A DNA stretch of 64,000 nt from a virus: the IMG/VR virus record IMGVR_UViG_3300025151_006410, positions 1-64,000 of that record; one strand, written 5' to 3'. Below the pieces are notes generated by a model, which saw nothing but the letters and a program-made list of their open reading frames with translations, did no database searches and had not been told where the DNA came from. Of the stretch, positions 27,807-41,683 are shown piece by piece (position 1 is the first letter of the stretch; the number at the start of each line of letters is the position of its first letter). A program made the translations under genes and the position numbers.

Positions 27807-27834
27807 ATTATAACAGGATTTGTTTTTTTTGCAA
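27807..27834 (-). promoter_or_regulatory. Sigma70-like promoter for dsbA-gene 43 operon
   Basis: Minus strand TTGCAA (27829-27834), 16 bp, TATAAT (27807-27812), then AGGAGA and the ATG at 27787. The -35 is weaker than in the other early promoters. Confidence 0.6.
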
Positions 27835-28398
27835 GTGTTCAATCACACGCTCAGCGATTATTTTGTGTCCTTTCTTAGTTGGGTGCCCACATGGTGTATT
27901 TCCTACACCATCAACTACTTCGAGTATTGATGTTGGTAACCAATTTTCAGGATCAAAATTCCTAGTGCGTTTTCTTTCTTCTGGAAAGGCACACCATTGA
28001 AAATGTGGTATTTGATTTTTCAACAATTTGTCTACAATCCATGTTTTATCTACCCAGTCTTGAAATTGCACATCTGTATTCATATCTTTGTACCATTGCT
28101 CAATAAACTTCCCAGGAAATGAGTTTCCATTGGGTTGCATTTGATAAACTATTTCGCCATGATGCACTTCTGAACGATTCCAATGACTCCATGTCACAAT
28201 TATTGCGTCTACGTCTGCATTCTTTCTCATATAATTCACAAGGTTTCGTAATATGGCATGATTTGACCCGCCTGCCACAAATTGATTGTCTGCTTTCATA
28301 TAAAAATGTTTTGCAACTAAGTTAGGCCAAATGTCTGGATCATCTGTTCTAAATGGAGTGCCTTGCGTGAAAGAGTCTCCAAAAAAAGCTATGGTCAT
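27808..28398 (-). CDS. SGNH/GDSL-type hydrolase-like protein
   Basis: A 196-residue SGNH-fold protein. The nucleophile block is FFGDSFTQGTPF, block II glycine AGGSN, block III/strand IIVTWSHWN, and the C-terminal catalytic His block is GHPTKKGHKIIAERV. The family deacylates lipids, polysaccharides or peptidoglycan-linked groups. Two further SGNH-like proteins occur in this window (35330, 55087). TAATG start overlap with the upstream 54-residue ORF. Substrate unknown. Confidence 0.75.
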   Translation of the reverse strand: MTIAFFGDSFTQGTPFRTDDPDIWPNLVAKHFYMKADNQFVAGGSNHAILRNLVNYMRKNADVDAIIVTWSHWNRSEVHHGEIVYQMQPNGNSFPGKFIEQWYKDMNTDVQFQDWVDKTWIVDKLLKNQIPHFQWCAFPEERKRTRNFDPENWLPTSILEVVDGVGNTPCGHPTKKGHKIIAERVIEHLQKKQILL

Positions 28399-28562
28399 TA
28401 CTGTTTTATTTTAAATGTTTTATTGTCTTTGTCAATAGCTTCTTTATCAAACCAACGTTTCGCTGGTCTGTGTTTATTAAGTTTAAGTCCCCTAGCACCA
28501 GGACTTTGAGGTTTAACTGTTTGCTGTGCTACCGGTATGTCCATGATTTCTGAGATTTTCAT
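28398..28562 (-). CDS. 54-residue basic protein with MKISEI start, late promoter
   Basis: A short ORF starting MKISEIMDIP, then basic (KLNKHRPAKRWFDKEA). Its stop overlaps the SGNH ATG (TAATG). A late promoter AGTAAATA ends exactly 5 bases before its ATG with no ribosome-binding site. The N-terminus resembles that of other late small proteins here. Confidence 0.62.
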   Translation of the reverse strand: MKISEIMDIPVAQQTVKPQSPGARGLKLNKHRPAKRWFDKEAIDKDNKTFKIKQ

Positions 28563-28567
28563 ACAAG

Positions 28568-28575
28568 TATTTACT
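28568..28575 (-). promoter_or_regulatory. Late promoter AGTAAATA
   Basis: Minus strand AGTAAATA, 5 nt before the ATG at 28562. The 16-base stretch AGTAAATACTTGTATG is identical to the one at 32536-32551. Confidence 0.65.
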
Positions 28576-29251
28576 TGTCATCTGATTTAAAGCCTTCGTC
28601 ATAATTAAACTGTTCTGGCTTTTCTTGTTCAAACTGTGTAAAATACGAGTCATCTGTGATGGATTCTTCTCTGGTGTTTTCAACTGTGTAGAAGTTTTGA
28701 TCAATAAGGTAACCTGGATTGCTTTGTAATCTTTCTTCCATAAATGCGTCATCATACCAAACAATTCTGTTGTTCGGATAACAAAAGAATGTGCCTTCAT
28801 CCATTCTAAACATATGTCCGCATTTGTGTTCTGGGTCTTCTGAGAAATTTGTATCTAGTATGGCACCTTTATCTTCCCAACCCCAGTCCACTGTGAACAT
28901 GTATGTTCCTTTGCGTTTAACACCTTTCCAGTCAATAAGTTCTGCTCTACAGTTTGCAAGTCTATTTCTTCTTTGTACATTTACGTATGGCGAAAAACAA
29001 TCCCAATACATGTGTACATTTAATGGATGTTTTGGTGCATCTTTTTTCCAAACTAATGAATGGATTGGTCTACGTGTCCAATTGACTCCATTTGGTAACA
29101 GCACTTCGAATAACAATGCTCTGCGTTCTAAAGATGCTATACAGTGTACATCACAAAATGAAAATGTATCATGCCCTTTGGTATGGTTATATAGATATTC
29201 ATTTCTGATGTAAGCTGAAAAAGGTGGAATATTATGGTTTAAGTATGCCAT
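28571..29251 (-). CDS. Unknown conserved-looking phage protein
   Basis: A 226-residue protein rich in aromatic residues (TYMFTVDWGWEDKGAIL; MFRMDEGTFFCYPNNRIVWYDDAF) with an acidic tail. Beta-rich appearance, maybe a virion or host-recognition component. No family name recognised. A variant late motif AATAAGTA lies 9 bases upstream of the ATG. Confidence 0.5.
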   Translation of the reverse strand: MAYLNHNIPPFSAYIRNEYLYNHTKGHDTFSFCDVHCIASLERRALLFEVLLPNGVNWTRRPIHSLVWKKDAPKHPLNVHMYWDCFSPYVNVQRRNRLANCRAELIDWKGVKRKGTYMFTVDWGWEDKGAILDTNFSEDPEHKCGHMFRMDEGTFFCYPNNRIVWYDDAFMEERLQSNPGYLIDQNFYTVENTREESITDDSYFTQFEQEKPEQFNYDEGFKSDDK

Positions 29252-29276
29252 CTACACTGCTACTTATTAAAATTTC

Positions 29277-29477
29277 TTAATCTCCATTTACAACTTGATT
29301 CATCTGCTTTATGCGATCACTTGCATAATGATCAAACCATCTAGGCGCCAACCCGTGTATTAGTAAAGCCAACATAGCTGTAAAACACGCCCATGCTAAT
29401 GCCCAAGCAAATTTGAGATGTTGCCAAGCAGTCATATTGTTTTCTTCTAAATGTGCTTTACACTTTTTAGATATCAT
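29277..29477 (-). CDS. DUF6356-like single-pass membrane protein
   Basis: A 66-residue protein with one transmembrane helix (WALAWACFTAMLALLIHGL), then PRWFDHYASDRIKQM, a pattern I associate with the DUF6356 family of marine phages. The start at 29477 is set by a TAATG overlap with the upstream stop; an internal ATG (MTAWQH) is possible. Function unknown. Confidence 0.62.
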   Translation of the reverse strand: MISKKCKAHLEENNMTAWQHLKFAWALAWACFTAMLALLIHGLAPRWFDHYASDRIKQMNQVVNGD

Positions 29478-30352
29478 TATTTTTTAGGCTTGTTGCTTAC
29501 GTTGATTGCTTTGCCTTTTCTATTAGGATTTTTGTCTTTTGATCTTTTTCTACGCACTGCGGCCGCAATGGCTTTTTTGCCTCCACTTGCACGTAATGAA
29601 GCCGCTCTGGCTTTGGATAAGCATTTTGGTTTGCCTTCGCCTGGTTTACGATCACCACATTTACCTATGCGTTCGCCTTTGGCATTGTAACGATCCCAAC
29701 CTCCTCCACCAGCTCCACCTTTTTTGCCTTTGCCGAACCAAGCTCTTAGTCCAGAATGGTTTGCTTCGTCCACCTGGTCATGTGTAGCACATGAATCTAA
29801 TAGATCGTAATATTCATAAAAGAAGTTAATTGCTTTTGTTTCATCTGCAGTTTCATACACTACATCTTCAAACTTGTCTATGATTGCGTATCTGTTTTCA
29901 TTTTTGACACAGTTTGGAACACGTTTGCCAAACATTTTTTTGAAACCTTTGCGTTTATACCCTTTCCAACAACGTGTGCCTTCAGTCATCTGTGACTTCA
30001 CTATCTCACTCTTAACTTTTTTTGGAACTTCTTCTTCATACTCTTCATCTTTAAATTTGTAAACTGTAACATTTGGTCTTTGACCTGGCATGCCTTGCAT
30101 AGGTTCTTGTGGGATTGATATATCAGTCTGACCTTTTTGGAGTAAGGTATCTAAACCTAAACTTGCCACTTCCTTGTCAGTTGCTGGCACTACCTTAATA
30201 AAGTTAGCTGGATCGTCTTTTGACTTTCCAGTTATCGATCCACTTCTCTTAAAAGTTGTTTTAACATATTTTCCTGTTGGCATTTTTACAAAGGCAATGT
30301 TAGATGCAAATGTGTCTAGTTCGGACAATTTTTGTATTTCTGCAAGTTTCAT
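29477..30352 (-). CDS. Basic virion-type protein with conserved GGGGWDRY tail domain
   Basis: A 291-residue protein. The ATG at 30352 (MKLAEIQKLSELD) is chosen because it overlaps the upstream stop as ATGA. It contains EGTRCWKGYKRKGFKKMFGKR, then an acidic helical stretch and a C-terminal Gly/Lys domain (GLRAWFGKGKKGGAGGGGWD, KPKCLSKARAASLRASGG). I recognise the latter as a small domain spread through marine phage proteins. Likely structural or internal head protein; inference. Confidence 0.6.
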   Translation of the reverse strand: MKLAEIQKLSELDTFASNIAFVKMPTGKYVKTTFKRSGSITGKSKDDPANFIKVVPATDKEVASLGLDTLLQKGQTDISIPQEPMQGMPGQRPNVTVYKFKDEEYEEEVPKKVKSEIVKSQMTEGTRCWKGYKRKGFKKMFGKRVPNCVKNENRYAIIDKFEDVVYETADETKAINFFYEYYDLLDSCATHDQVDEANHSGLRAWFGKGKKGGAGGGGWDRYNAKGERIGKCGDRKPGEGKPKCLSKARAASLRASGGKKAIAAAVRRKRSKDKNPNRKGKAINVSNKPKK

Positions 30353-30537
30353 TTCTTTTTGCCGCCTGTTCCCCAGTTCTTGGCACCTTTTTTGCGGCAC
30401 TGAACTAGAGCACCAGAGGCATAAGCACTAGGCCAAACTTTGTATCTTGATTTTACTTTATAGTAGCAGGCGTCTTTTTTCTCTGCTAGTCTTTCAAACT
30501 CTTCTTCTGTGATACCTGTGATTTCGTTGACTTTCAT
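30349..30537 (-). CDS. Small basic phage protein, KVKSRYKVWPSAYASGALV family
   Basis: A 62-residue protein of a widespread short phage family: ACYYKVKSRYKVWPSAYASG is the conserved core, followed by CRKKGAKNWG. Starts MKVNEITGITEE, matching the N-terminal tag described in the findings. Function unknown; the gene lies in a run of late basic proteins. Confidence 0.72.
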   Translation of the reverse strand: MKVNEITGITEEEFERLAEKKDACYYKVKSRYKVWPSAYASGALVQCRKKGAKNWGTGGKKK

Positions 30538-30540
30538 ACA

Positions 30541-30936
30541 TTACCAATTTCTACAAGACCAGTATCTTGCTTTTGTTTTTGGTCCTGGATTATCACAGTT
30601 GTGTCTTGCTCTGAATGAGCGTCTTCTTGCTGGATTAGATTTTCTAATTCTCATGGTTGGTCTTTTTGCTGAAGTACCACCATGTCCAAAATTTACTTTT
30701 TTGACATTGCCTGTTTTTGGGTCTTTGACATATACTTTGAATTTTTTTACATCTCCACGCATTGGCTTGTTGAGTGGAACTTTTCTACCTCGATATTCTG
30801 CCTCCCAAACTTCTTCTTCTGGAAACCCCAGTATACCAAATACGTCATTAAATTCTTCGTGATCTTCTACAGTAATTTCGTCCTCTATTGGAAAGTCAAC
30901 ATATTCAACTGCTTGAAAAAATTCATCTAGTTTCAT
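30541..30936 (-). CDS. Small phage virion-type protein, RARHNC...RYWSCRNW family
   Basis: A 131-residue protein with an acidic N-terminal half (MKLDEFFQAVEYVDF) and a basic C-terminal domain I recognise from many marine phages: FKVYVKDPKTGNVKKVNFG, RRRSFRARHNCDNPG and ARYWSCRNW. The conserved Cys/His pair suggests metal binding. ATGA-coupled to the upstream gene. Probably packaged or structural; not proven. Confidence 0.7.
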   Translation of the reverse strand: MKLDEFFQAVEYVDFPIEDEITVEDHEEFNDVFGILGFPEEEVWEAEYRGRKVPLNKPMRGDVKKFKVYVKDPKTGNVKKVNFGHGGTSAKRPTMRIRKSNPARRRSFRARHNCDNPGPKTKARYWSCRNW

Positions 30937-32036
30937 GCTGAGCTGATCCTGTCATCATAGTCCATACCCATTTCGTATGGCACAAACATTGTTTTACCCA
31001 TTCTTTTACCACTGCCTTCGTCTTTTTCTACTTTGACATGATATCCTAATGCTCCTGGCTGTGATTGAGATTCGGCATCAACTTTTGTTACTGTGCCTAT
31101 GATAAATCTATCTGGTCTGCCTGGCATTGGTTCAAAATCGTATGCTTTGATTTTGTCACCTTCTTTGTATTTGCCTTGAAACTTTAATGCTTCATCTACA
31201 TTATCGCAATCGCATCCTTCTTCACCTTCACATGCACAATCGCTTACAGTTTCCATTTGGTCTGCTTCATCGTAATATTCTTTTGCTTTTTGTACTTCTC
31301 TATCAAAACTTAAACCTGTTATTTCAGCAAAGTGAATAGCATCAGCAAGTAAGTCAGCAAGTGAATCAATTCTATTTGCTCTCATTATTTTATCGATTGC
31401 AATAGCTTTTGATTTGTTTGGTACTGCTTCAAAAATGCCTTCTTTCATTTTCTTTTTCTTTTTCATCTTGTGCATTGATTCATCAATAGAAAGATCGGCT
31501 AATATTTCTTGTGCATCTTCAAAGTCTTGTTTTTCTTTGTCAGACAATCCTGATGTTTTTTCTTTTTTTGCAAGATTTCTTATAAATGCTCTTGCTTTGT
31601 CTGGATCAAAATCAAACATTGCTTTAAGTCTTGCTACGTTGTTTTCACCAATTACTTCTTCGTCTTCGTCTTTCATTTTCTTTTTGTCTTTTTTGAAATG
31701 TGGCTCTTTTGCATCTTTTGGTTTTGCTGTAGTTGTAACACCAATTTTAGAATCACGATTTTTGTATTTGTCTCTAGCCCCTAGCCCAATTTGTCCTAAT
31801 GAATATTCACCTAGTAATGCTTGCACTAACTTTGATTCTGCAAATTTTGGATTGGCTGATGCTAGTGCTGTTAGATATGTTCTTGGTTGAACTCCTCTTG
31901 ATCTTGCCGCATCTGAAATCATTTTTTCAAAATCTAATAATTTAACTTTTGCTTCCATTTTTGATGCTGGTTTCTTGGCTTTTTTCTGTTTTTTCATTTC
32001 GTCTATATTGTTAAAAAGGTCTGTTAAGAAGTTCAT
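30933..32036 (-). CDS. Lys/Asp-rich late protein with Cys cluster, possible internal or core protein
   Basis: A 367-residue protein starting MNFLTDLFNNIDEM, with charged low-complexity stretches (KKDKKKMKDEDEEV, HKMKKKKKMKEG) typical of head-core or scaffold-associated proteins. A cysteine-rich acidic patch, DCACEGEEGCDCD, could bind metal. The C-terminal part (YKEGDKIKAYDFEPMPGRPD, FIIGTVTKV) looks like a small beta-barrel. A late promoter ends 5 bases before its ATG. Confidence 0.55.
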   Translation of the reverse strand: MNFLTDLFNNIDEMKKQKKAKKPASKMEAKVKLLDFEKMISDAARSRGVQPRTYLTALASANPKFAESKLVQALLGEYSLGQIGLGARDKYKNRDSKIGVTTTAKPKDAKEPHFKKDKKKMKDEDEEVIGENNVARLKAMFDFDPDKARAFIRNLAKKEKTSGLSDKEKQDFEDAQEILADLSIDESMHKMKKKKKMKEGIFEAVPNKSKAIAIDKIMRANRIDSLADLLADAIHFAEITGLSFDREVQKAKEYYDEADQMETVSDCACEGEEGCDCDNVDEALKFQGKYKEGDKIKAYDFEPMPGRPDRFIIGTVTKVDAESQSQPGALGYHVKVEKDEGSGKRMGKTMFVPYEMGMDYDDRISSA

Positions 32037-32041
32037 GCAAA

Positions 32042-32049
32042 TATTTATT
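32042..32049 (-). promoter_or_regulatory. Late promoter AATAAATA
   Basis: Minus strand AATAAATA, 5 nt before the ATG at 32036, overlapping the stop of the upstream gene. No ribosome-binding site between. Confidence 0.65.
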
Positions 32050-32287
32050 ACAACTTAAAAGTTGTGCTTTGTTTTGATTTTAATAAAAATCTATTATTAC
32101 AAGTAAAGGTACCTTTTCCTGTGTTTTGTACCATGCAATCATCTGATTCTGAGTCACTTGCATAATGGAAAGTAAGTTTATTTTTGTTAAATTTTAAAGT
32201 TTGATCCAAAAATATTTCATTATTAATGAATACTCTAACAGAAGTAGACTGATCACCATTAACAACAATGCTGGCTGTTTTTAACAT
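32048..32287 (-). CDS. Small beta-rich late protein
   Basis: A 79-residue protein of alternating strands (ASIVVNGDQSTSVRVFINNEIFLDQTL; FTCNNRFLLKSKQ), probably a small virion component. TAATG-coupled to the gene upstream. No family recognised. Confidence 0.55.
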   Translation of the reverse strand: MLKTASIVVNGDQSTSVRVFINNEIFLDQTLKFNKNKLTFHYASDSESDDCMVQNTGKGTFTCNNRFLLKSKQSTTFKL

Positions 32288-32538
32288 TATCTACGTATTA
32301 GTGCAGGTCCACCAAATATTGATGTGCCTTTCATATCAAGTGCATTGTCAGTGGGTTTTTGCTTCTTTATTTTAGGTACTCTTGGAGCTTTTTTGCCTGA
32401 TCTGCCAGGCTTGCCTGTAAAAGATTTTTTAGTCCTATCTTTGCCAATAGCAATGTGTGGCGAAGCTACAGTGGCAATGTTTGCTGATGATGTTGCTCCC
32501 GCTGTTGCTTGCTCTTTGATGATGTCTGATATTTTCAT
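32287..32538 (-). CDS. Small basic virion-type protein (MKISDIIKE start)
   Basis: An 83-residue protein from the ATG at 32538, chosen because a late promoter ends 5 bases upstream. N-terminus MKISDIIKEQATAG, then Lys/Pro-rich sequence and the C-terminal NALDMKGTSIFGG. I recall similar 'KEQATAG... KGxxIFGG' proteins in marine phages. The IKE at residues 7-9 fits a prohead-protease (I/L)xE site. Function unknown. Confidence 0.68.
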   Translation of the reverse strand: MKISDIIKEQATAGATSSANIATVASPHIAIGKDRTKKSFTGKPGRSGKKAPRVPKIKKQKPTDNALDMKGTSIFGGPALIRR

Positions 32539-32543
32539 ACAAG

Positions 32544-32551
32544 TATTTACT
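32544..32551 (-). promoter_or_regulatory. Late promoter AGTAAATA
   Basis: Minus strand AGTAAATA exactly 5 nt before the ATG at 32538; identical context to 28568-28575. Confidence 0.65.
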
Positions 32552-33311
32552 AGTACACTGTTACGTTTTGAATTCCTAACATCATGTTTATGCATGTCAA
32601 ATAATCTACTACTGATGTTATTTTCCTATAAAAAAACACATCTGACATAGGCAGGGTTTTTTTGCCTATGGTTAGATATTGCCATCTTTCTGATGATGAC
32701 ATGCTGGTGGAACAGTTAACATGAATATAAGGATCTTGCCTAAATGATATGTACAAATTTCTACGTGGATGTACATTACCAGGCACATGATAGCACACAA
32801 ACCAACTGTTTGGCACATATTCAAAATTTTTGTTACTCATTTTAATAAAGGTTTTTACTGAGATATCATTCAACTGTAAGGTAGTAAAGGTTTCAGCATT
32901 CACTTGTTGTAGGTCAATTTTAAATTCAGATTTTCCAGTGTCTTCACCTGCACCTAGCCATGATATTCCTTGTGATAGTAACCATCGATGATCTGCATCG
33001 TCAGTGGTAGGAGTCACTGCTGGCATAAATGCTGTTACACCTACGTATTTTTTCCTATAGTATGGCTGTCGTCTCCATATGCAAAATGGTGTTGCATGGA
33101 AATTTTCGTCATGATGTGTGTATTGCACTGTAAGTTTAATATCATTGGTTACTGGCTCATGTTCTCCTGCCACCACAGGCACGTGTAAAAAATGTCCACT
33201 TGCGTCTAGTTCATAAAACTTATCATTATTAATACACCTCACAGTGTAGGATTGGCATGCTTTGGGCATGATATAGGCAATAAATTGATTGTATGGTCCT
33301 GATGCGTCCAT
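32550..33311 (-). CDS. Unknown late protein, beta-rich
   Basis: A 253-residue protein from the ATG at 33311 in a TAATG overlap with the upstream gene. Rich in aromatic residues and strands (CQSYTVRCINNDKFYELD; HATPFCIWRRQPYYRKKYVG; NLYISFRQDPYIHVN). Looks like a virion or adhesion component. No domain recognised. Confidence 0.5.
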   Translation of the reverse strand: MDASGPYNQFIAYIMPKACQSYTVRCINNDKFYELDASGHFLHVPVVAGEHEPVTNDIKLTVQYTHHDENFHATPFCIWRRQPYYRKKYVGVTAFMPAVTPTTDDADHRWLLSQGISWLGAGEDTGKSEFKIDLQQVNAETFTTLQLNDISVKTFIKMSNKNFEYVPNSWFVCYHVPGNVHPRRNLYISFRQDPYIHVNCSTSMSSSERWQYLTIGKKTLPMSDVFFYRKITSVVDYLTCINMMLGIQNVTVY

Positions 33312-33958
33312 TAAAAATATTTGTCTTTCATTGCCCAATGGTGCCATACATCTTCATACTTGTTATGCATTCTTCCATCATATGTTTCATTGTTGCTGTC
33401 TAACCAAGCATTGTGTATATCTGATACTGTTGATTTGTCAAGTGATATTTTCAGTAGTTTTGCAATGTGCATGATTCTTTTAACAAATATTTTCCTATTA
33501 TCAAAAAATTCATAAAACTTTAACGCCATATGTGGAACGCCTTGTCTTTGAATATAAAAAAGCATTTCATTGTGATAGTTCATATGCAGATGCATTATAT
33601 TATCATTCATAACAGATTGATGTATAAATTTATGCCTCCACTTTATTAATTTCTTACTTTCTATATCACCACAATCAATATACACAATTTGATCGAGCTT
33701 GTGTAGGTCTTTAAACCGTACTTGGAAAGATGGTACTATGCCTATTTTTTCATGCAATCCAAACTTATATTCACGCAAGACCCATGGGTCTTTATTTGTT
33801 TTGTATAGGTCAGTGTAGTGTTCACCTTTATCATTGAATGCTGTGGAAAAAATTTGTGCAATCAGATTGCCACCACTCAATGGCATGTACACAATGTTGC
33901 ACAGTCTTGAGCCATTTAATTTTCCTTTGTCTGAATCCAATTGCTTGATATACGCCAT
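33311..33958 (-). CDS. 'SGGNLIAQ' family protein, copy 2
   Basis: A 215-residue protein that shares a start with the following gene product: RLCNIVYMPLSGGNLIAQIFSTAF here, RLCTIIFTPLSGGNLIAQIL there. Both have a late MNYHNE/MNYHTE segment and end near DIHNAW / NIYNAW. The glycine loop after the first strand resembles a degenerate P-loop of sulfotransferase-like proteins. Tandem duplication is clear; activity unknown. Confidence 0.6.
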   Translation of the reverse strand: MAYIKQLDSDKGKLNGSRLCNIVYMPLSGGNLIAQIFSTAFNDKGEHYTDLYKTNKDPWVLREYKFGLHEKIGIVPSFQVRFKDLHKLDQIVYIDCGDIESKKLIKWRHKFIHQSVMNDNIMHLHMNYHNEMLFYIQRQGVPHMALKFYEFFDNRKIFVKRIMHIAKLLKISLDKSTVSDIHNAWLDSNNETYDGRMHNKYEDVWHHWAMKDKYF

Positions 33959-33969
33959 GTTACTAATAG

Positions 33970-34620
33970 TTATTCAGTTTCATCTACACCACCGAATCGG
34001 TTGGTCATGTTTGGCCATTTATCCTCAAACCAATCAGGTGGTCTTTGCTTTTTGTATTTCCATTGTGTTTGATGTGCTTTACGCCATGCATTGTATATGT
34101 TTTTAATAGTAGACTTGGATACATTAAGATTTAATTTATCTGCTAGTCTTTGCATAGTATTAATAAAATCCGCTTCCACAAAAAAATCTCTGAATGCAAG
34201 TTTGTGTAGTAAGCAGTTTTGGCTTTCCAAATAGTGTTCTAGCTCTGTATGGTAATTCATTTCAAATTCTAAAGACCAATTATCTTCTGCTGACGTTGTT
34301 GTGCGAACAACTTTGCTTCTGTGGTGTATTCCTTTGCGTGAATGTTCATCAGCAACTGATATCAGTACTAGGTTTGGTCTTTTTTTGCAATAATCTTCAA
34401 ATGTAAAATTTCGATTTTCAAGTTGATCAGCAAAAGTTGGCTGTGTGTGTATTGATGGATGCAATTTGAAGCCAAGTTGCTCACGCTGAATCCATGGCAC
34501 ATCTTGTTTATATGCTTTTACTACATCTGCTTCGTTATTGTAAAAATGTGTGCTTAGTATTTGAGCTATTAAATTGCCGCCTGATAAAGGTGTGAAAATA
34601 ATCGTACACAATCGATCCAT
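33970..34620 (-). CDS. 'SGGNLIAQ' family protein, copy 1
   Basis: A 216-residue paralogue of the 33311-33958 product, with MDRLCTIIFTPLSGGNLIAQ at the N-terminus and NLNVSKSTIKNIYNAW at the C-terminal end. A late-type promoter AGTAAGTA ends 5 bases before the ATG. The shared motif with 11248-11778 suggests a three-member family. Function unknown. Confidence 0.6.
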   Translation of the reverse strand: MDRLCTIIFTPLSGGNLIAQILSTHFYNNEADVVKAYKQDVPWIQREQLGFKLHPSIHTQPTFADQLENRNFTFEDYCKKRPNLVLISVADEHSRKGIHHRSKVVRTTTSAEDNWSLEFEMNYHTELEHYLESQNCLLHKLAFRDFFVEADFINTMQRLADKLNLNVSKSTIKNIYNAWRKAHQTQWKYKKQRPPDWFEDKWPNMTNRFGGVDETE

Positions 34621-34625
34621 GTGAA

Positions 34626-34633
34626 TACTTACT
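34626..34633 (-). promoter_or_regulatory. Late-type promoter AGTAAGTA
   Basis: Minus strand AGTAAGTA, 5 nt before the ATG at 34620; one base from the NNTAAATA consensus. Confidence 0.5.
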
Positions 34634-34826
34634 TTTTCTTAGCACGACCACGTTTCATGTTGAGATTCCATTGAGCCATTCTTTTGCGTTCGCCTGTTCC
34701 TGTTTTTGCAATTTTTTTCAGCTGTGCAATAGACATTTTTTGACTAACACCAACACGTTTAGATAATCCTTTGCGTCCTGGTTTTTTACCGTCTGCAAAA
34801 CTTTCAACAAACTCTGATAATCTCAT
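34629..34826 (-). CDS. Small basic virion-type protein (GRKGLSKRVGV family)
   Basis: A 65-residue basic protein: MRLSEFVESFADG, then KKPGRKGLSKRVGVSQKMS, RKRMAQWNLNMK and a Lys/Arg tail. I recognise the core as a small family frequent in marine T4-like phages. ATGA-coupled to the upstream gene. Likely nucleic-acid binding or packaged; not shown. Confidence 0.7.
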   Translation of the reverse strand: MRLSEFVESFADGKKPGRKGLSKRVGVSQKMSIAQLKKIAKTGTGERKRMAQWNLNMKRGRAKKK

Positions 34827-35143
34827 TTCTTCTTTGCCTTTGTTTTCTTTTTCATTGTGTTAATATATTTTCTATAAATTGAAGCAGGTCCTGTTTTGCC
34901 AGCCGCTTTTGCTCTTTGTTCCATAGCCACTGCCGCTTGTATTTTGTGTGCATGTGATCTACCTGATTTTCTAATTTTAGTGATACTAGCCCTTGCAGTC
35001 GCATCATCTTTGAATCCTAGACCGTGAATAGTGCCTTTAGGATCTTCATCAGTGTACAAGTCTGAATGTTTTTTTGACTTTGCTGGCTGTCCTTTTTTGC
35101 GTGGGATACGTTTGCCTTCTAAAATAATATCTGCTATTTTCAT
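34823..35143 (-). CDS. Basic virion-type protein (HSDLYTDEDPKGTI family)
   Basis: A 106-residue protein starting MKIADIILEGKRI. Conserved core HSDLYTDEDPKGTIHGLGFK, then RSHAHKIQAAVAMEQRAKA and YRKYINTMKK, familiar from many marine phages. ILE at residues 7-9 fits a prohead-protease site. ATGA overlaps on both sides. Function unknown. Confidence 0.7.
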   Translation of the reverse strand: MKIADIILEGKRIPRKKGQPAKSKKHSDLYTDEDPKGTIHGLGFKDDATARASITKIRKSGRSHAHKIQAAVAMEQRAKAAGKTGPASIYRKYINTMKKKTKAKKK

Positions 35144-35349
35144 TTTTTGGTCCTTTTTAATTTTTTATTGACTGGTCCGGTTAGGTATGGTCTTGAAAAC
35201 CATAGTTTGAACCAAGCTGGATCACCTGGACGTAGACCCAATTCACGTTCTTTTTTGCGTTTTTCTGTGCCAGTGATAGACATGTTTTCTTTGGGTTGTT
35301 GATCATAAACCCCTACACCAGCTAATTTTTTAAGTTCTTCTAAGGTCAT
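35140..35349 (-). CDS. Small conserved phage protein (ITGTEKRKKE...LWFSRPYLTG)
   Basis: A 69-residue protein beginning MTLEELKKLAGVGVY, with the conserved NMSITGTEKRKKE and DPAWFKLWFSRPYLTG motifs seen in other marine T4-like phages. Overlaps the SGNH-like gene by 20 bp. Function unknown. Confidence 0.68.
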   Translation of the reverse strand: MTLEELKKLAGVGVYDQQPKENMSITGTEKRKKERELGLRPGDPAWFKLWFSRPYLTGPVNKKLKRTKK

Positions 35350-35986
35350 GTTGTTCCATATATTTAATCAAATAGTCGGCCCAACGTCTATGCCCTGCAA
35401 CTGTAGGATGGTAGTCTTTTTCGCTTACATAGGTCTTGTTGTCTTGGCAGTATTCAAAGTGACTATAATTCATCTTAAAAAAGTATTTTTCGTCTATTAG
35501 ACTGCGGAGTAAATTACAATCATTTGAATCAGTAATTTTGTTTGGTAAGCCAAAATACATTAGATATTTGATATTGTTCATTTTAAAGTAGTTTTGTAAA
35601 TCAACTATATGATTCAATACTGTTACAGATTCGTGTTCTACATCATCAAATCCTGGCATCACGTTTAAAATATTTCTAGTATGATATGTTCTCCAAGTAG
35701 AACTAAATTCTTTTATTTTTTTGAATCCATCGTTTGTAACATAGTCTACACGCCCAGCCTGGGTCCATTCAATCAGAGCAACTGTATCCTTTTTACGTTG
35801 CGGATATGTTTCAAACCATAATTTGGTAGTGGTGTTGATTCTGTGATTGCCTCGACCACCACGTGCAAAGTTGTTAAGTTTAAATCGAAAATAGTTGGCA
35901 ACCATTTTGCCGGTAAACGTAGCAATTCGACCTTTGTCATTTGGGGTGTTAAAAGAGCACCCATTTACAAAAAGTTGTTCAAGCAT
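35330..35986 (-). CDS. SGNH hydrolase-like protein
   Basis: A 218-residue protein. Nucleophile-block VNGCSFNTP, the glycine/asparagine block FARGGRGNHRI (SGNH Gly and Asn) and the C-terminal DYHPTVAGHRRWADYL (Asp/His dyad) are all present. Second SGNH-like protein in the window and not close in sequence to the first. Possible role on cell-surface polymers or virion glycans. Confidence 0.68.
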   Translation of the reverse strand: MLEQLFVNGCSFNTPNDKGRIATFTGKMVANYFRFKLNNFARGGRGNHRINTTTKLWFETYPQRKKDTVALIEWTQAGRVDYVTNDGFKKIKEFSSTWRTYHTRNILNVMPGFDDVEHESVTVLNHIVDLQNYFKMNNIKYLMYFGLPNKITDSNDCNLLRSLIDEKYFFKMNYSHFEYCQDNKTYVSEKDYHPTVAGHRRWADYLIKYMEQHDLRRT

Positions 35987-36004
35987 AGTGTTATGCTTAA
36001 TTTA

Positions 36005-36322
36005 TTACTCTTGGCTTTCTTTGACCTCGTGGATTGACATGTTTAGATTATAAGTTTTGCCATTCCATTTATATTGTACGTCTGCAGAATTCATGCCAGT
36101 GCCTGTGCTTTCAACTTCTGCTCCTGCTTCTGCAAGACCACTTTCCATAACTTTTGTTAGATTAGCAACATGGTCAGCTGTTTCTTCAGCTAATTTGGCA
36201 AACTCATCTTCTTTGTCTTTGAGTGCGTCCATTATTTTGCTGTACTGTTCAGCATCAGTTTTTAATGACAATGAATCTATATTGTCTGCAAGTCTTCTTA
36301 ATTCAGCGCCTTCTTTACTCAT
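36005..36322 (-). CDS. Small helical acidic protein
   Basis: A 105-residue protein from the ATG at 36322 (MSKEGAELRRLADN), which overlaps the end of the upstream structural gene. Long helices (MDALKDKEDEFAKLAEETAD) and a final strand region (QYKWNGKTYNLNM). No family recognised. Probably virion-associated. Confidence 0.5.
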   Translation of the reverse strand: MSKEGAELRRLADNIDSLSLKTDAEQYSKIMDALKDKEDEFAKLAEETADHVANLTKVMESGLAEAGAEVESTGTGMNSADVQYKWNGKTYNLNMSIHEVKESQE

Positions 36323-38009
36323 TGCGTAACATTTCACAACCGCCAAATTCAGTTGTTACTTCTCCAAACATTTCTTCGCCTAAATCTTCGTACATTGACT
36401 TGATTGAATCAACTGCTAACACATGATCTTCAAAAAAGTTTTTGCCTGATAGATCTAAAACATTAAGTTTATGGTTTACAGGATATGTACCATTGCCGTC
36501 TCTTGAAAGATAAGGCACATTACCAGCACCAATTTGCCCAACAATTTTGCCTTCTTTTACAAGATATGCTACTGTGTAGTTTGTGGTATCACCTTCCCAT
36601 GCTCCATCTTCTGCAACAAGACCACCTTCTGGTTTTGTTACTACTTCTGCAATTACAAATTTTGCACCATCATACAGTGATTCGTCTGCAATAATTCTAG
36701 CTGACGCTGTAAGTCCTAGTGCATCTTGAGCCCCACCAACAAGCATTAGTTCATATTGTTTGTTGAGCTCTTCGATCATTCTATCTGTATCTGAAATAGA
36801 TTCATCTTTTTTCTTTTCTTTGTCTTTAGCCGCTTTTTTCATAGGTTCTTTTTTGTCGCCATCTTTGTCTAAATCTAAAAAGTCAGGCTTAGCATGCTTA
36901 GCCTCATCAACGTCTTCATCGTCTTTTGAATCGCCTTGTTTTTTCTTAATAGCGTCTTGTAAACCTTTTGGTAATTTTTTTTGAGCCGCTGTTAGTTCTT
37001 CGTCAAGCTCTTCGCCTTCTGGTAACGGATTGTCACCTCTTGAAGCCGCTGATGGACCCATTTTTGAATTAGGAACTTTGTTTCTTTTGAGTTCAAAATC
37101 ATCTTTATCTAAGTATGCTTCGTCTTTGTCATTTGCATACATTTCAGTTTCTGGCTCAGCATCTACTGGTCCTTCCATATCACTTTTTGGTGCTTCAGGC
37201 TCATCTCCCATCGGCGCCATTGGTGCTTCAGGTTCAGGCATTGAGGGTTGCTGTCCTTGAATGTTCATTTGGCTTGGATCTAGTCCTGCATTTTTAAGTA
37301 TAGTCATGAGTGCAATGGAATCTTCCAATGTATCTGTAGTGATACTAATACCCTCATTTAGTTTCTTTTTGTCTGACATTGTTGATTCTCCTATTTGCGA
37401 TTTGTCATCTTTCATTGCCAATTTTGTTGCTGTTGCATACATTACTGCATCAGCGTCTTTGCCGTAACGTTTACGGAAACCTGCTTTGTCTTTTTTCATT
37501 GATTTTACAATTTTTTCTTTTTTGTCTGTTTCAGCTTTTGTCATTTCTCTTCCTGTTGAACTGTGTTCCCCACCATGCTTTTCAGTCATTTCATCTGAGT
37601 CTTCAACATCGTTGGTAAGATAATTTTTTACAGCTTCTACATCACTCTGTGCCACTGCTAGTTTATTAGTAAGCCACGTATCAAGATTGCCAGTGCCATC
37701 CATCTCTTTGAATTTTGCATGTAGCGCCATCAAATCTTTGATCATGACAACTGTTTTACGTTGCATTGAGTCTACATCAGTGTGACCATCTTCGCCGAGT
37801 GCATCTTTCATTTCTTCTTTTGACTTGCCATGTTTCTTTTTGAACTCAGCATCTGATAATTCTTTCATGTCTAATGCTATATCTGACATTTTGCCTTCTT
37901 CTACACCTTCTCTTTGCAATCTGTTGTAATAAGTTTCTGGCTTGCTAACCAAATTTATAGCATCATATTTTTGATATAGATCTGCTAAAAAATCTGATTC
38001 GTGTGACAT
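36315..38009 (-). CDS. Large acidic virion-associated protein
   Basis: A 564-residue protein with charged, low-complexity regions (KKDKAGFRKRYGKDADAV; PEPEAPMAPMGDEPEAP; a KEPMKKAAKDKEKKK linker). A conserved segment EDGHTDVDSMQRKTVVM ... WLTNKLAVAQSDVEAV is one I know from T4-like marine phage structural proteins. The C-terminal part is a folded beta domain (GAKFVIAEVVTKPEGGL). Probable head or prohead-associated protein; the late promoter upstream fits. Confidence 0.62.
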   Translation of the reverse strand: MSHESDFLADLYQKYDAINLVSKPETYYNRLQREGVEEGKMSDIALDMKELSDAEFKKKHGKSKEEMKDALGEDGHTDVDSMQRKTVVMIKDLMALHAKFKEMDGTGNLDTWLTNKLAVAQSDVEAVKNYLTNDVEDSDEMTEKHGGEHSSTGREMTKAETDKKEKIVKSMKKDKAGFRKRYGKDADAVMYATATKLAMKDDKSQIGESTMSDKKKLNEGISITTDTLEDSIALMTILKNAGLDPSQMNIQGQQPSMPEPEAPMAPMGDEPEAPKSDMEGPVDAEPETEMYANDKDEAYLDKDDFELKRNKVPNSKMGPSAASRGDNPLPEGEELDEELTAAQKKLPKGLQDAIKKKQGDSKDDEDVDEAKHAKPDFLDLDKDGDKKEPMKKAAKDKEKKKDESISDTDRMIEELNKQYELMLVGGAQDALGLTASARIIADESLYDGAKFVIAEVVTKPEGGLVAEDGAWEGDTTNYTVAYLVKEGKIVGQIGAGNVPYLSRDGNGTYPVNHKLNVLDLSGKNFFEDHVLAVDSIKSMYEDLGEEMFGEVTTEFGGCEMLRNE

Positions 38010-38017
38010 AACGTGTA

Positions 38018-38025
38018 TATTTATG
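38018..38025 (-). promoter_or_regulatory. Late promoter CATAAATA
   Basis: Minus strand CATAAATA, 8 nt before the ATG at 38009. Confidence 0.6.
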
Positions 38026-38033
38026 ATAGCAGG

Positions 38034-39101
38034 TTATGATAACAAGCCAATTTGTGGGTAAGGATTGTTGGCTGGGTCAGTTGTAGCCAGTGGATATGCT
38101 GTGTTTACATCCAATGATAGTCCACTTTTGGTTAAGTCACTAACATTTTTTGCAAATGTATAAGTTTTTTGTCCAAGATCAATAAACAGTATACCTTTTA
38201 AATCACCTTTTGCTCTTTTAGTAGCAAGATAGTATTGTATATTCATTTTGCCATACAGCAGTCTTGCACTGTCACTGTCTTTGACTAGTGCATTAGTAAT
38301 ACGTTCAACACCTTTCACACCAGGAAAAACATTGCTCAGTACGGCTGTGACATCATTAAGTATTTGTTTTTTTCGAGATGTTTGCACTAGTTTGGCTAAT
38401 TGAGCAAGATTCATACCTTGATTTGATCTCATTTTGAGTCCTTGTTGTTCTAGTGCTTGTATATCTTTTGCATATTTTTTTAGAAACTTATCAACTAGTC
38501 CAGGGTATTGTGATGATACCGAAACATTCCTATCTGTAAATCTAGCATTTTTTACACGCTTTGCTTTTAGTTCAACTGGTGATCCATCTATAATCAAATC
38601 ACCTGATCCAGCTCCTGCCCCAATGCCTGATATGCCTTTGCTTAATACTGCGAGTGTAAATTCGCCAGGCCCAATACCTTGTGCAATTACATCATTGAAA
38701 TCATCAACAAGTTCGGTCATCGCAGGGTTCTTGCCATATCCTACAAATATGTCACTCATTTTGTGTACACCGCCTGAAGTTAAAACTTTTTTATTAACAA
38801 TTTTGTCTGCGTTCCACAGTTTGAACAGTTTTTCTCTACCCTGTGAATCGAAGTCCACAGTGGAAACCATTTTTGCGATTTTTTTCACAGCTCTTTGCAC
38901 ATCATTATCGTCAATCTGTTCTACTCGCGAAAGCAAAGACTGTACTCTACCACCTACCCCAACATCGTTCAGTAATTGCGTAATCCTATCGATTACAGCT
39001 ACACTTTCAGAATCTGTGCCTATGCTTTGTATCTTTTGGATTAGCTCTTTCTTTTGTAGCTTCAGTTGTTCTGGCTTAATTTTAAATTCATACAGTCGCA
39101 T
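38034..39101 (-). CDS. Late protein with PD-(D/E)XK-nuclease-like motif
   Basis: A 355-residue protein starting MRLYEFKIKPEQ. After helical regions the segment GIGAGAGSGDLIIDGSPVEL followed by KAKR gives a G-x-G-D-L/I ... E-L-K pattern, the PD-(D/E)XK nuclease active-site signature (D, then E-x-K about ten residues later). The rest is mainly helical. Phage late proteins with this motif may be structural or injected nucleases; activity is inferred. A late promoter ends 5 bases before the ATG. Confidence 0.55.
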   Translation of the reverse strand: MRLYEFKIKPEQLKLQKKELIQKIQSIGTDSESVAVIDRITQLLNDVGVGGRVQSLLSRVEQIDDNDVQRAVKKIAKMVSTVDFDSQGREKLFKLWNADKIVNKKVLTSGGVHKMSDIFVGYGKNPAMTELVDDFNDVIAQGIGPGEFTLAVLSKGISGIGAGAGSGDLIIDGSPVELKAKRVKNARFTDRNVSVSSQYPGLVDKFLKKYAKDIQALEQQGLKMRSNQGMNLAQLAKLVQTSRKKQILNDVTAVLSNVFPGVKGVERITNALVKDSDSARLLYGKMNIQYYLATKRAKGDLKGILFIDLGQKTYTFAKNVSDLTKSGLSLDVNTAYPLATTDPANNPYPQIGLLS

Positions 39102-39106
39102 ATGTG

Positions 39107-39114
39107 TATTTACT
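39107..39114 (-). promoter_or_regulatory. Late promoter AGTAAATA
   Basis: Minus strand AGTAAATA, 5 nt before the ATG at 39101, overlapping the stop of the upstream gene. Confidence 0.65.
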
Positions 39115-39526
39115 CAGCTAGTTCTTCATTAACAACATCTAATAAATTGTTTGTATCAAAGCTCCAATTGACTCCATATGACAATAAACAGGTGAATTGG
39201 GTATCTCTCAATGTCATATAAAAGACGCCTCTGTTGTTGTCTTTGTTGTACCAAAACGACATAGTGCCTAATATATCATTTGTAATGATACCATTTCGTC
39301 TTACTTCAGCAGAACCTTGATATTGCATACCCATTTGTTCTTTTGTCAATAATAACATATCTAAACTGTTGCCACAGTATAGGGGTAGTGGTACTGCTGT
39401 TAACATACCAGGTGGATAACCAATTGGTGGCTCTTCTGCTTGTGCTTTGTGTGAGGCACCCAACATTATCAAACAGAATATTGTTAGTGCTATTATGCCA
39501 ATTAGTTGTATTTTGTTCCAATCCAT
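39110..39526 (-). CDS. Signal-peptide exported protein
   Basis: A 138-residue protein with a hydrophobic N-terminal segment (IIALTIFCLIMLGASHKAQA) ending in a plausible signal-peptidase site AQA-EE. The mature part is beta-rich (YYMTL-like runs, LLSYGVNWSFDTNN) with two cysteines. Exported to the host periplasm or envelope. No family recognised. Confidence 0.6.
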   Translation of the reverse strand: MDWNKIQLIGIIALTIFCLIMLGASHKAQAEEPPIGYPPGMLTAVPLPLYCGNSLDMLLLTKEQMGMQYQGSAEVRRNGIITNDILGTMSFWYNKDNNRGVFYMTLRDTQFTCLLSYGVNWSFDTNNLLDVVNEELAE

Positions 39527-39555
39527 GTTTTTATACTACTTAAAACAGTAACAAA

Positions 39556-40026
39556 CTAGATTGCTGTAACGTGAGTTGCGCCACGTCCTTTACCAATTCT
39601 AGCTATCTTTGACATGGCCATCACTGCCTTTTGAAAGTACCCTTCTGGTTTGCCTGCATCGATAAATGCGCCACCGCCTGCTCGTCTATCTACTTGGTCA
39701 GGTTGTGCTGGTGATTGTTTACCTATTGACTGTTTTAAAAATTGTGTTGCTTTGGCAATGAATTCATCTATTGGTATGGTGTCTTCTGTGTCATAGCCTA
39801 GTGTGTCCATTACTTCACGCATGTTGGCATTGGATAGACTTAGATCTTCTTCTGGATCATAGTCGGGATTTGGCTTAGGATCTTTGTCATAGGGCCAATC
39901 TCTTTTGTAAAAATCAGGCTCATATTTTGGTTGATCGCCTGTCACTGGGTAGTAATAGCCCTTTTCTTTGTCAAACTTCCTTGCAGAAAACGACATACTT
40001 TCTATTATAAAATCACTTGCCTTCAT
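39556..40026 (-). CDS. Late protein with MKASDFIIES start
   Basis: A 156-residue protein from the ATG at 40026; a GTG or ATG a few codons upstream overlaps the previous gene more. The N-terminus MKASDFIIESMSFSARKFDKE is close to a T4-type capsid-targeting sequence, with IIE at 7-9. A Pro/Asp/Tyr-rich middle (YEPDFYKRDWPYDKDPKPNP) and a helical C-terminus follow. Unknown function, probably virion. Confidence 0.58.
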   Translation of the reverse strand: MKASDFIIESMSFSARKFDKEKGYYYPVTGDQPKYEPDFYKRDWPYDKDPKPNPDYDPEEDLSLSNANMREVMDTLGYDTEDTIPIDEFIAKATQFLKQSIGKQSPAQPDQVDRRAGGGAFIDAGKPEGYFQKAVMAMSKIARIGKGRGATHVTAI

Positions 40027-40555
40027 TACTAAGCGCCTTTTCAAGTTGTTGTATTGTTGTATTTACACTTCCAGTTTTATGCTGGATACCTATTCCGCCA
40101 GCTTCTGTCCATTTTCTAATGTTTACTCCAAAGTCGTCAATCAGTATGTTTCTAGTACCATCACGCTGAACAGCGTATTTGCCTTTGTTTCCAGTTGCTG
40201 GCATGATAATTGTGTCTCTAGGACGAAGTGGCAAATTGTTGATCCATTGCTTTTTTTGTATTACAGCATTTGAATCTTCAGTGCCAGGTGCTTTAGACAA
40301 AACTATGTAGTCACCTTTAAAAAGGTCTGCGATACTGGACATTAATTTTGGCACATCTGGTAATACTTTCAAATTGATCCAAAAATCTTCCGAGTTAGCA
40401 ATGCGTCTTAACACTTTACTAATTGTAGTTTTGTCTGCATCACTCCAATGTTTTACCCCAGCCATTTTATTAAATGGTCCGTAAAAGTCTGCTAACACAC
40501 CATCCATATCTACATATAATATCGGTTTGGATTGTTCTAGTTCAATTAGGTTCAT
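40013..40555 (-). CDS. 5'(3')-deoxyribonucleotidase-like HAD phosphatase
   Basis: A 180-residue HAD-superfamily phosphatase with the catalytic DMDGVLADF motif (D16, D18), VLSKAPG (motif II Ser) and LIDDFGVNI (motif IV acidic). This layout matches the 5' nucleotidase C family, which dephosphorylates dNMPs. ATGA overlap with the upstream nucleotidyltransferase. Starts MNLIELEQ in a region of proteins sharing an N-terminal tag. Confidence 0.8.
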   Translation of the reverse strand: MNLIELEQSKPILYVDMDGVLADFYGPFNKMAGVKHWSDADKTTISKVLRRIANSEDFWINLKVLPDVPKLMSSIADLFKGDYIVLSKAPGTEDSNAVIQKKQWINNLPLRPRDTIIMPATGNKGKYAVQRDGTRNILIDDFGVNIRKWTEAGGIGIQHKTGSVNTTIQQLEKALSNEGK

Positions 40556-41442
40556 AGTTTGTACAATTTTAATTTTTTAAGTTGTCTTTTTATTTCGCCT
40601 GGCTTAACATCTTTTGTCGTATTTTGTTTTGTAATGATGCCAACCCCAGCCGCCTCTGATTTTTTTAATAAAGTGTTTTTAATGTTGTTTATATCTGCTT
40701 CAACTTGTGTGAGATTATCTAGTATGTCTTTTGGAACTGCTCTGCCATCACCAAATTTCATTTTGAGTACGTCTAATGTTCCTTGCATATCTTTTACCTG
40801 TTGTATCACATAGCGATTATCAAAGTCGTTTAATTCTTTAATAGGTTTGTTTGGTCTTTTCACTACAGGCTTATTTTCTTTTATGTTCATACCTTGTCTT
40901 ACACTCCTAAATAGCATTTCTTTAGTTTTGTCACCACCTGCAACAATTTTTTTGAAACTGTTGAAATCATTTTTTAATGCAAATTCTCTAGCCATCGAAG
41001 CTGACGCTCCTGCTACGCCATCAGCATCTGGATCTCTTTGGCCTGCTGATTGCACGTTGATTGAATCAAATTTGTATTCTTTGTTGTTGTATTTTTTTAA
41101 CAGTGTTTCAAAAGATTTTGCTCTGTCTGATCCTGCTACCATTGTTACATCTGTATATCCTTCATTCTGTAATGACTTCATTACATCAATAATTGTTTTG
41201 ATACTTGCATCTTTTACAATGGATTTGCCATGTTCTGGAAATTGTTGTGATAAAAAATTTAATTTAGTTTTGTATTCTAACGGGTTTTTCTTGCTGTCTT
41301 GAGTTTGTGATGCAAAAATTTTGTAATTGCTGTTACTGGCTAAAGTGTCAAGTAGTTTACCATGTCCGATTGTTGGTGGATTGAAACGTCCAAATACAAA
41401 AGCTACCTCTTTACTGTTGACTTCCTGGAGTTTCATTTTCAA
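40552..41442 (-). CDS. Cytidylyltransferase-like nucleotidyltransferase
   Basis: A 296-residue protein whose first 160 residues form a nucleotidyltransferase domain: GRFNPPTIGH (HxGH-type motif, residues 18-27) and a later SASMAREFAL (SxxxxR-type motif). This resembles NMN/phosphopantetheine adenylyltransferases. The C-terminal third is basic and helical with no known domain. It could act in NAD metabolism, or on another nucleotide adduct. Starts MKMKLQEVN. Confidence 0.75.
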   Translation of the reverse strand: MKMKLQEVNSKEVAFVFGRFNPPTIGHGKLLDTLASNSNYKIFASQTQDSKKNPLEYKTKLNFLSQQFPEHGKSIVKDASIKTIIDVMKSLQNEGYTDVTMVAGSDRAKSFETLLKKYNNKEYKFDSINVQSAGQRDPDADGVAGASASMAREFALKNDFNSFKKIVAGGDKTKEMLFRSVRQGMNIKENKPVVKRPNKPIKELNDFDNRYVIQQVKDMQGTLDVLKMKFGDGRAVPKDILDNLTQVEADINNIKNTLLKKSEAAGVGIITKQNTTKDVKPGEIKRQLKKLKLYKL

Positions 41443-41683
41443 TCATACTTTGGTATAAATCAATGGCTACTTCCCTTTTCAGATCGGATGGCATTTGATC
41501 ATAATTTAAGTTGTTATTTTTACAATAATGCATGATAGCATTATCTACTAATTCTATTACTCTGTCTTTATCGTCAGGATTTTTCTGCATGTGATACACT
41601 GTTGGAACATACAATCTTCTGTAAATGTCCTCATCGTCGAAAATTGACGAGAATACAAGATCTTTTAGGTTTTCGTCATGCAT
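41411..41683 (-). CDS. Small conserved phage protein
   Basis: A 90-residue helical, acidic protein (MHDENLKDLVFSSIFDDEDI; MPSDLKREVAIDLYQSM). I recall this pattern from marine T4-like phage structural regions. Overlaps the nucleotidyltransferase gene by 32 bp. A late promoter lies 7 bases upstream of its ATG. Confidence 0.6.
   Translation of the reverse strand: MHDENLKDLVFSSIFDDEDIYRRLYVPTVYHMQKNPDDKDRVIELVDNAIMHYCKNNNLNYDQMPSDLKREVAIDLYQSMIENETPGSQQ

Follow-up and report, generated by a model that had tools for sequence, protein, structure and literature searches.

Positions 28398-41450 of the window, the 64,000-nucleotide stretch analysed here (bases 1-64,000 of the 69,019-base uncultivated virus record IMGVR_UViG_3300025151_006410, a fragment without head genes), hold a cluster of 23 genes, ten of which encode proteins with a shared short N-terminus, M-[KR]-hydrophobic-x-[DE]-[FILV], hereafter called the tag. 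We argue below that the tag is probably a head-targeting propeptide. A sequence-only reading had listed the ten N-termini, and all are present, every one on the minus strand. Hydrophobic anchors stand at residues 3 and 6, residue 5 is acidic, and a glutamate follows, mostly at residues 8-11. Among isolates, the B-family DNA polymerase (PolB) of the window is closest to those of the jumbo phages Phosso of Sinorhizobium (49% identity) and Atu_ph07 of Agrobacterium (46%); larger uncultivated relatives on 175-197 kb contigs reach 64-65%. PolB places the phage with T4-type and not phiKZ-type relatives, and by its sequence the source is a large ocean phage of the T4 superfamily, of jumbo type.

The bodies behind the tags are mutually unrelated in sequence. 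Five tagged proteins have a clear I/L-x-E site (a slash marks the predicted cut throughout): the product of 29477-30352 (MKLAEIQKLSE/), which contains CWKGY and WFGKG domains and a second predicted site, MTE/GTRCWKGY, at residue 124/125; the 62-residue product of 30349-30537 (MKVNEITGITE/EEFERLAE/KKDACYYKVKSRYKVWPSAYAS; phrog_727, phrog_3477), with its second site at residue 19; the 83-residue product of 32287-32538 (MKISDIIKE/QATAGATSSANIAT); the basic product of 34823-35143 (MKIADIILE/GKRIPRKKGQ); and the 156-residue product of 39556-40026 (MKASDFIIE/SMSF). A nucleotidyltransferase of cytidylyltransferase/NMNAT type at 40552-41436 (phrog_3041, E=2e-57; PF01467) has L-Q-E at residue 5 (MKLQE/V); the longer form MKMKLQE (40552-41442) begins at TTG, and the ATG at 41436 is the likelier start. 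The basic protein at 34629-34826 (MRLSEFVE/SFADGKKPGRKG; isoelectric point (pI) 12.0) carries F-V-E, and the best-supported predicted cut in 30541-30936 (MKLDEFF...) is a V-W-E at residue 45 (VWE45/AEYRGRK). The remaining two are a 54-residue basic protein at 28398-28562 (MKISEIMDIP...; pI 10.2), with AGTAAATAC 13 nucleotides (nt) upstream, and a 355-residue protein at 38034-39101 (MRLYEF...). The pI exceeds 9.5 in nine of the ten tagged bodies, and 12% of the other minus-strand genes encode proteins above pI 9. Pfam and PHROG searches name none of the small tagged bodies.

The tag opens 10 of the 23 cluster genes and 0 of the 80 genes elsewhere in the window (Fisher p=4.8e-8), by a pattern that was defined post hoc, after the data had been inspected. 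It recurs in independently fetched relatives, with 29 distinct tags on seven contigs of the group and others in contigs G034 and G036. Six other T4-superfamily phages show it in 6 of 1056 open reading frames (ORFs), and 1 of the 499 internal methionine codons of window proteins matches a version with the narrower ending [FIL]. Could the shared N-terminus be a general bias of short genes, or a DNA element linked to translation or promoters, with no function for the peptide? Met-Lys starts are common in phages, and TAAATA lies 11-13 nt before some tagged starts. We find this explanation hardly credible. Both a random bias of starts and conservation of the DNA are rejected in view of the 0 of 80, the rarity of internal matches, and the free variation of the tag codons (AAA/AAG/AGA/CGA; GAA/GAG/GAC/GAT; ATC/ATA/ATT/CTT/TTT and others), which indicates that selection acts on the peptide and not on the DNA. 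Moreover, T4-type tags are swapped onto one and the same body, as described below.

Relatives keep the pattern and change the letters. For 28398 they begin MKIEEIINVP, MKLIELGITT or MKIKEVIQTP, and the syntenic relative L003 retains the tag of 38034 as MRLFEL before a body that is 61% identical. The L003 orthologue of 39556 (MRLHEFKQINE/GMSF) has a tag of different length and sequence, and the body picks up again after the E. At 34823 the window form corresponds to MRLFEILAE/SKHKRIPRKKGQ in L003, and the orthologue of 34629 in G034 is MRASEFITE/NFADGKKPGRKG. Relatives of 29477 read MRLLELIEIEE/GTRCWKGY (L003) and, with the tag sitting straight on the domain, MKIYEITE/GTRCWKGYEKKG (G036; that is, MKIYEITE/GTRCWKGY). 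Within the window, (I/L)xE is found in 5/10 tagged against 11/93 untagged proteins (p=0.008); across the group the counts are 16/29 and 34/222 (p=7e-6).

The gp21 protease family (PF03420) is present in all ten large relatives, including those with 64-65% PolB identity. These were fetched through the Phosso capsid protein; in the first relatives, which lie on short contigs, gp21 was mostly not found. The 186-kb contig G034 (PolB 65% identical) encodes gp21 at 90036-90671, a major capsid protein (gp23) with LAE/SATAGATSAGN, and five tagged proteins, each of which reaches a hydrophobic-x-E no later than residue 9: MKANEILTE/A, MRASEFITE/N, MKIREIFE/T, MRLTEILTE/S and MKANEFIFE/D. The body of 30541 ties the site to the protease. 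Phages bearing gp21 precede this body with LTE/AEYQGKK (C48C1), LEE/AEFQGKK (HTVC008M), MME/SEYQGKD (Melnitz) or LDE/GEYRGKD (immuto), and the window form is VWE/AEYRGRK. In four phages without a PF03420 match (HTVC202P, HTVC026P, Kolga and CRP-902) the body starts directly with MAKYKGR, MAKYQGR or MATYKGK, so that, without a tag, the protein naturally begins where the mature N-terminus is predicted. The 34823 body gives a like case: in L117, where it has no tag, it begins MSNPRIPRK, precisely where an LAE/SNPRIPRK cut would fall.

A second link leads to the capsid protein itself. Relatives of 32287 read MKIQDILE/QATAGATSAGNIAS (L003), MKMHEIFE/QATAGATSAGNIAT (L008) and MKIREIFE/TATAGATSSANIAT (G034), and after the E these orthologues start QATAGATSAGN (L003, L008) or TATAGATSSAN (G034). 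Where the N-terminal region ends, the gp23 proteins of the clade have L[SAMI]E/[STQ]ATAGATSAGN[VI]AT, a cut position assigned by analogy with T4 gp23. Because 32287 continues after its E as the capsid protein does past its site, the tag glutamate stands in for that of the capsid maturation site, and the predicted mature N-terminus of 32287 imitates that of the major capsid protein. One G036 tag, MKINEIIIRRINNE/QATAGAT, is off-rule at P3. Peptides such as RKYLAESATAGATSAGN, MKIREIFETATAGATSSAN and MRASEFITENFADGKK would be candidate substrates for the gp21 of a G034-like phage.

Near gp21, a small conserved gene across the clade (L139-L218) opens with MILRELFY, MKLNEFF or MLLLEFF, which is the tag pattern. 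This suggests that the tag may mimic how a small head-core protein begins; the gene product is possibly the counterpart of T4 gp67/gp68. It has 70-110 residues and a DTRK-R-LTL motif.

The hydrophobic-x-E junctions bear on another proposal, in which the tag would sort proteins elsewhere, for example to tail assembly, the membrane or the jumbo-phage nucleus. We regard this as quite unlikely: the junctions equal the capsid-protein site and depend on gp21, there is no hydrophobic signal stretch, and the relatives are T4-type and not phiKZ-type. Some room for such a role is left in 28398 and 38034, which lack a clear cleavage site.

The tag also behaves as an exchangeable module. The body of 34823 is present in 80 viral contigs, about 80% identical throughout, under four kinds of N-terminus: a window-type tag, a T4-type tag, a polyprotein-internal position, or none. 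Window-type tags on this body include MKIADIILE/, MKIKEIVFE/A and MRLFEILAE/, with the first 11 residues replaced between phages; T4-type tags are MKTLQQFLE/S, MKTFLEFLAE/S and MKNLRQFLEE/S. Where the body lies inside polyproteins, 48 of 58 distinct contexts have hydrophobic-x-E at one and the same offset before it, and no other offset accounts for more than 17%. For other cluster domains, hydrophobic-x-E stands no more than 14 residues upstream in 34/35, 24/24 and 15/16 contexts. The fixed-offset counts are the cleaner measure, since control stretches for the 14-residue counts hold further domain boundaries and are therefore sometimes high.

Fusion and tag are alternative arrangements of the same cargo domains. 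The KKDACYYKVKSRYKVWPSAYAS domain of 30349 is fused in L003 behind the counterpart of 30933, where it has no tag of its own and only the internal ...ITEEEFEALAE/KKDACYHKV. In cyanophage S-CREM2, ORF160 joins the same domain to domains of window gene 29477. The domain also occurs in S-SCSM1 gp029, which is annotated 'virion protein'. Large polyproteins, acidic or mixed (36315-38009 in the window; S-SCSM1 gp029 at L137 11368-12921), consist of small Cys-/Lys-rich domains with hydrophobic-x-E between them.

Do such proteins reach the virion? The sequence-only reading had included a nucleotidyltransferase in the tagged set, which is borne out: the 40552 family is cyanophage T4-GC190 by sequence (558 phage records match, mostly cyanophages), and its homologues are found in virions by mass spectrometry (MS). 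Virions of S-SM1 contain a member of the cytidylyltransferase family (PMC3037559) and those of S-SCSM1 an NMNAT-like relative (PMC9602691); both the cytidylyltransferase and ORF160 were detected in S-CREM2 virions (PMC10665884). Homologues of 40552 begin MKSFSQFLTE (P-SSM2), MKNFSSFLTE (S-CREM2) and MLLKELFLKE (L045). Further virion-detected S-CREM2 proteins carry T4-type tags: an S-adenosylmethionine (SAM) hydrolase (MKDFDSFLEE), a kinase (VKRFDAFLTE), ORF13 (MKDLHSFLTE) and ORF136 (MQTFSMFFSE). In this phage, 5 of the 6-7 proteins that match the T4-type tag are virion-detected (p=0.003-0.008).

The text of the S-CREM2 paper (PMC10665884) makes no mention of targeting, an N-terminal tag or a capsid-targeting sequence (CTS). 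By their titles and abstracts, the papers found to mention the 'capsid targeting sequence' concern T4, P1, SPN3US or other topics, and none of them concerns cyanophages or marine phages; use of a CTS by T4-like phages in general has been suggested (PMC9026906). A virion-detected Cas9-like nuclease of S-CREM2 (OR473000; L021 7704-10313) contains a T4-type tag with a predicted cut, PLRFASFMAE/A, 16 residues past its annotated start.

In our reading, to which we give a probability of about 0.83, the shared N-terminus directs proteins to the capsid, as the T4 propeptide does, and a gp21-type protease cuts it off. In the T4 propeptide, residues 4 and 7 serve targeting and residues 8 and 10 processing (PMC9026906). 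T4 internal proteins read MKTYQEFIAE/A and MKTFKEFTSTTTPVSTITE/A, and the T4 tag given in the sequence-only reading is correct, MKTYQEFIAE standing in both IPII and IPIII.

Several observations weigh against our interpretation. The window tags do not follow the T4 consensus, which has hydrophobic residues at 4 and 7, I/L at 8 and E at 10. The earlier claim of a T4-like tag is supported as to a head-targeting propeptide on about ten proteins and fails as to the consensus, the anchors lying one residue earlier and residue 5 being acidic; accordingly we class the window tag as a variant of the T4-type propeptide, which would work like the T4 CTS. The claimed (L/I)xE cut becomes hydrophobic-x-E in most of the proteins: 28398 and 38034 (2 of the 10) have no convincing site, the best one in 30541 lies at residue 45, 34629 has F-V-E, and L045 has NELFD/AEYRGRK, with Asp. 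In T4, exchanging the Glu at position 10 for Asp blocks processing and keeps targeting (PMC9026906), so 28398 and 38034 may be packaged uncut. Within the window the (I/L)xE enrichment is modest, which is why our claim rests on the comparative evidence. A search for gp21, proposed earlier as a check, found none in the 69-kb fragment and succeeded in the large relatives. Window-type tags are few in the isolates Phosso (5/600 ORFs) and Atu_ph07 (10/882 ORFs). Finally, three phages (L048, L117/S-SM2 and L124) carry the 34823 body with no tag, and one of them, S-SM2, has gp21.

How might the propeptide work? Late in infection, the short amphipathic M-[KR]-h-x-[DE]-[FILV] segment (h, hydrophobic) would bind the prohead scaffold, or core, and so build the tagged proteins into the prohead. 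A gp21-type protease would then cut after hydrophobic-x-Glu, mostly at residues 8-11 and sometimes deeper, leaving mostly strongly basic bodies in the head among the DNA. A second route to the head would carry the same cargo domains as polyprotein segments separated by sites of that kind. At infection the bodies would most likely exit with the DNA, like T4 internal proteins. Packaging and cleavage of the tagged proteins are well supported by the sequence comparisons, and the phage probably carries a sizeable kit of ready-made proteins in its head; analogy with T4 makes their delivery into the host plausible.

This last step has a serious competitor. The tag may bring proteins to the prohead core merely as parts of the assembly or scaffold, or as head proteins that condense DNA and remain in the virion, and not as effectors. 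The tagged bodies are mostly small, strongly basic and without a recognizable enzymatic family, the tag resembles the head-core-like gene next to gp21, and 32287 imitates the capsid-protein arm. We consider this a real possibility, if not the one that we favour: the cargo includes a nucleotidyltransferase, the tagged SAM hydrolase and kinase of S-CREM2 virions are more like delivered enzymes, and T4 internal protein I is injected (PMC3012670).

The label 'late', given earlier to the tagged genes, gains support from the placement of TAAATA. Of the 23 copies of this late-promoter-like motif on the minus strand, fifteen are found 8-32 nt ahead of a gene start (permuted hexamers, 2-22%), and it stands 11-14 nt before the starts of cluster genes, including 28398, 32287 and 38034, and of structural-looking genes. 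Transcripts starting so near would be almost leaderless. Examples of minus-strand sites are 28573, 32549, 39112 and 43822, and those upstream of 58295 and 60497. The exact T4 late promoter TATAAATA, considered as a candidate, is not enriched in the window; the looser TAAATA is.

The nuclease-like protein of the sequence-only reading would be 38034, at most a putative nuclease. Neither Pfam nor PHROG gives a match for 38034-39101, and the structure model, built from two sequences, is unreliable (pLDDT 45). A GDLII..PVELK motif recalls PD-(D/E)xK nucleases and is conserved in one homologue only.

Untagged genes are interspersed in the cluster. The 367-residue product of minus-strand gene 30933-32036, with TAAATA 11 nt upstream, is a probable polyprotein partner, as its L003 counterpart is fused to the 30349 domain. 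At 36315-38009, also on the minus strand and with TAAATA upstream, lies an acidic, polyprotein-like protein of 564 residues with phrog_12788 and phrog_24078 segments. The cluster also holds a tandem pair of related genes (33311-33958 and 33970-34620) whose products start ...PLSGGNLIAQI, two GDSL-like proteins (27808-28398 and 35330-35986) and, between tagged genes, a match to phrog_3704 (28571-29251; labelled ferredoxin, E=4e-48). Just beyond the window, the phage has a gene for an iron superoxide dismutase, with one for a PF01521 protein of iron-sulphur cluster biosynthesis close by (L002 6416-7697; record 66.4-67.7 kb).

More broadly, we lean towards the view that T4-superfamily phages share an exchangeable head-delivery code, in which a short tag, or hydrophobic-x-E within a polyprotein, would have a protein packed and then freed in the head. 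Marine members would load a large, fast-changing cargo of basic DNA-binding domains and a nucleotidyltransferase, to which S-CREM2 would add its SAM hydrolase and kinase and, possibly, Cas9; some cargo would imitate the mature N-terminus of the capsid protein, and the tag may imitate a head-core protein. The CTS would then no longer be a T-even speciality: in marine and jumbo T4-like phages it could be read as a code, and sequence would let one predict, for hundreds of uncharacterized phage proteins, which of them travel in the virion. Such proteins may enter the host at time zero and are likely factors for counter-defence, takeover or DNA packing. The code also offers a way to explain why cyanophage virions contain such puzzling enzymes as cytidylyltransferase/NMNAT, a SAM hydrolase, a kinase and Cas9. 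Tags of the window type might further serve as alternative addresses when phage heads are to be filled with chosen proteins; that a tag by itself suffices to package a foreign protein has been demonstrated for T4 only (PMC9026906).

How does the window compare with known systems? Like the CTS of T4 IPI, IPII and IPIII, which is cut by gp21, its tag is a short N-terminal propeptide with Lys 2, hydrophobic anchors three residues apart and a terminal Glu, and the bodies are basic and the cargo variable, as in T4 internal proteins. However, the anchors are at 3/6 rather than 4/7, residue 5 is acidic, and the Glu falls mostly at 8-11, with some sites later; the window also has more cargo genes, in a single cluster, and their bodies are unrelated to the T4 internal proteins. 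In the giant phages phiKZ, 201phi2-1 and SPN3US, too, a protease removes propeptides from many head proteins by cutting after Glu (PMC9026906), but these phages are not close by PolB, their proteases are diverged gp21 homologues and their propeptides differ. Among T4-GC190 cyanophage enzymes, to which 40552-41436 is homologous, the P-SSM2 and S-CREM2 copies start with a T4-type tag, whereas the window copy has the other type of tag and a different C-terminal part, the alignments ending near residue 190.

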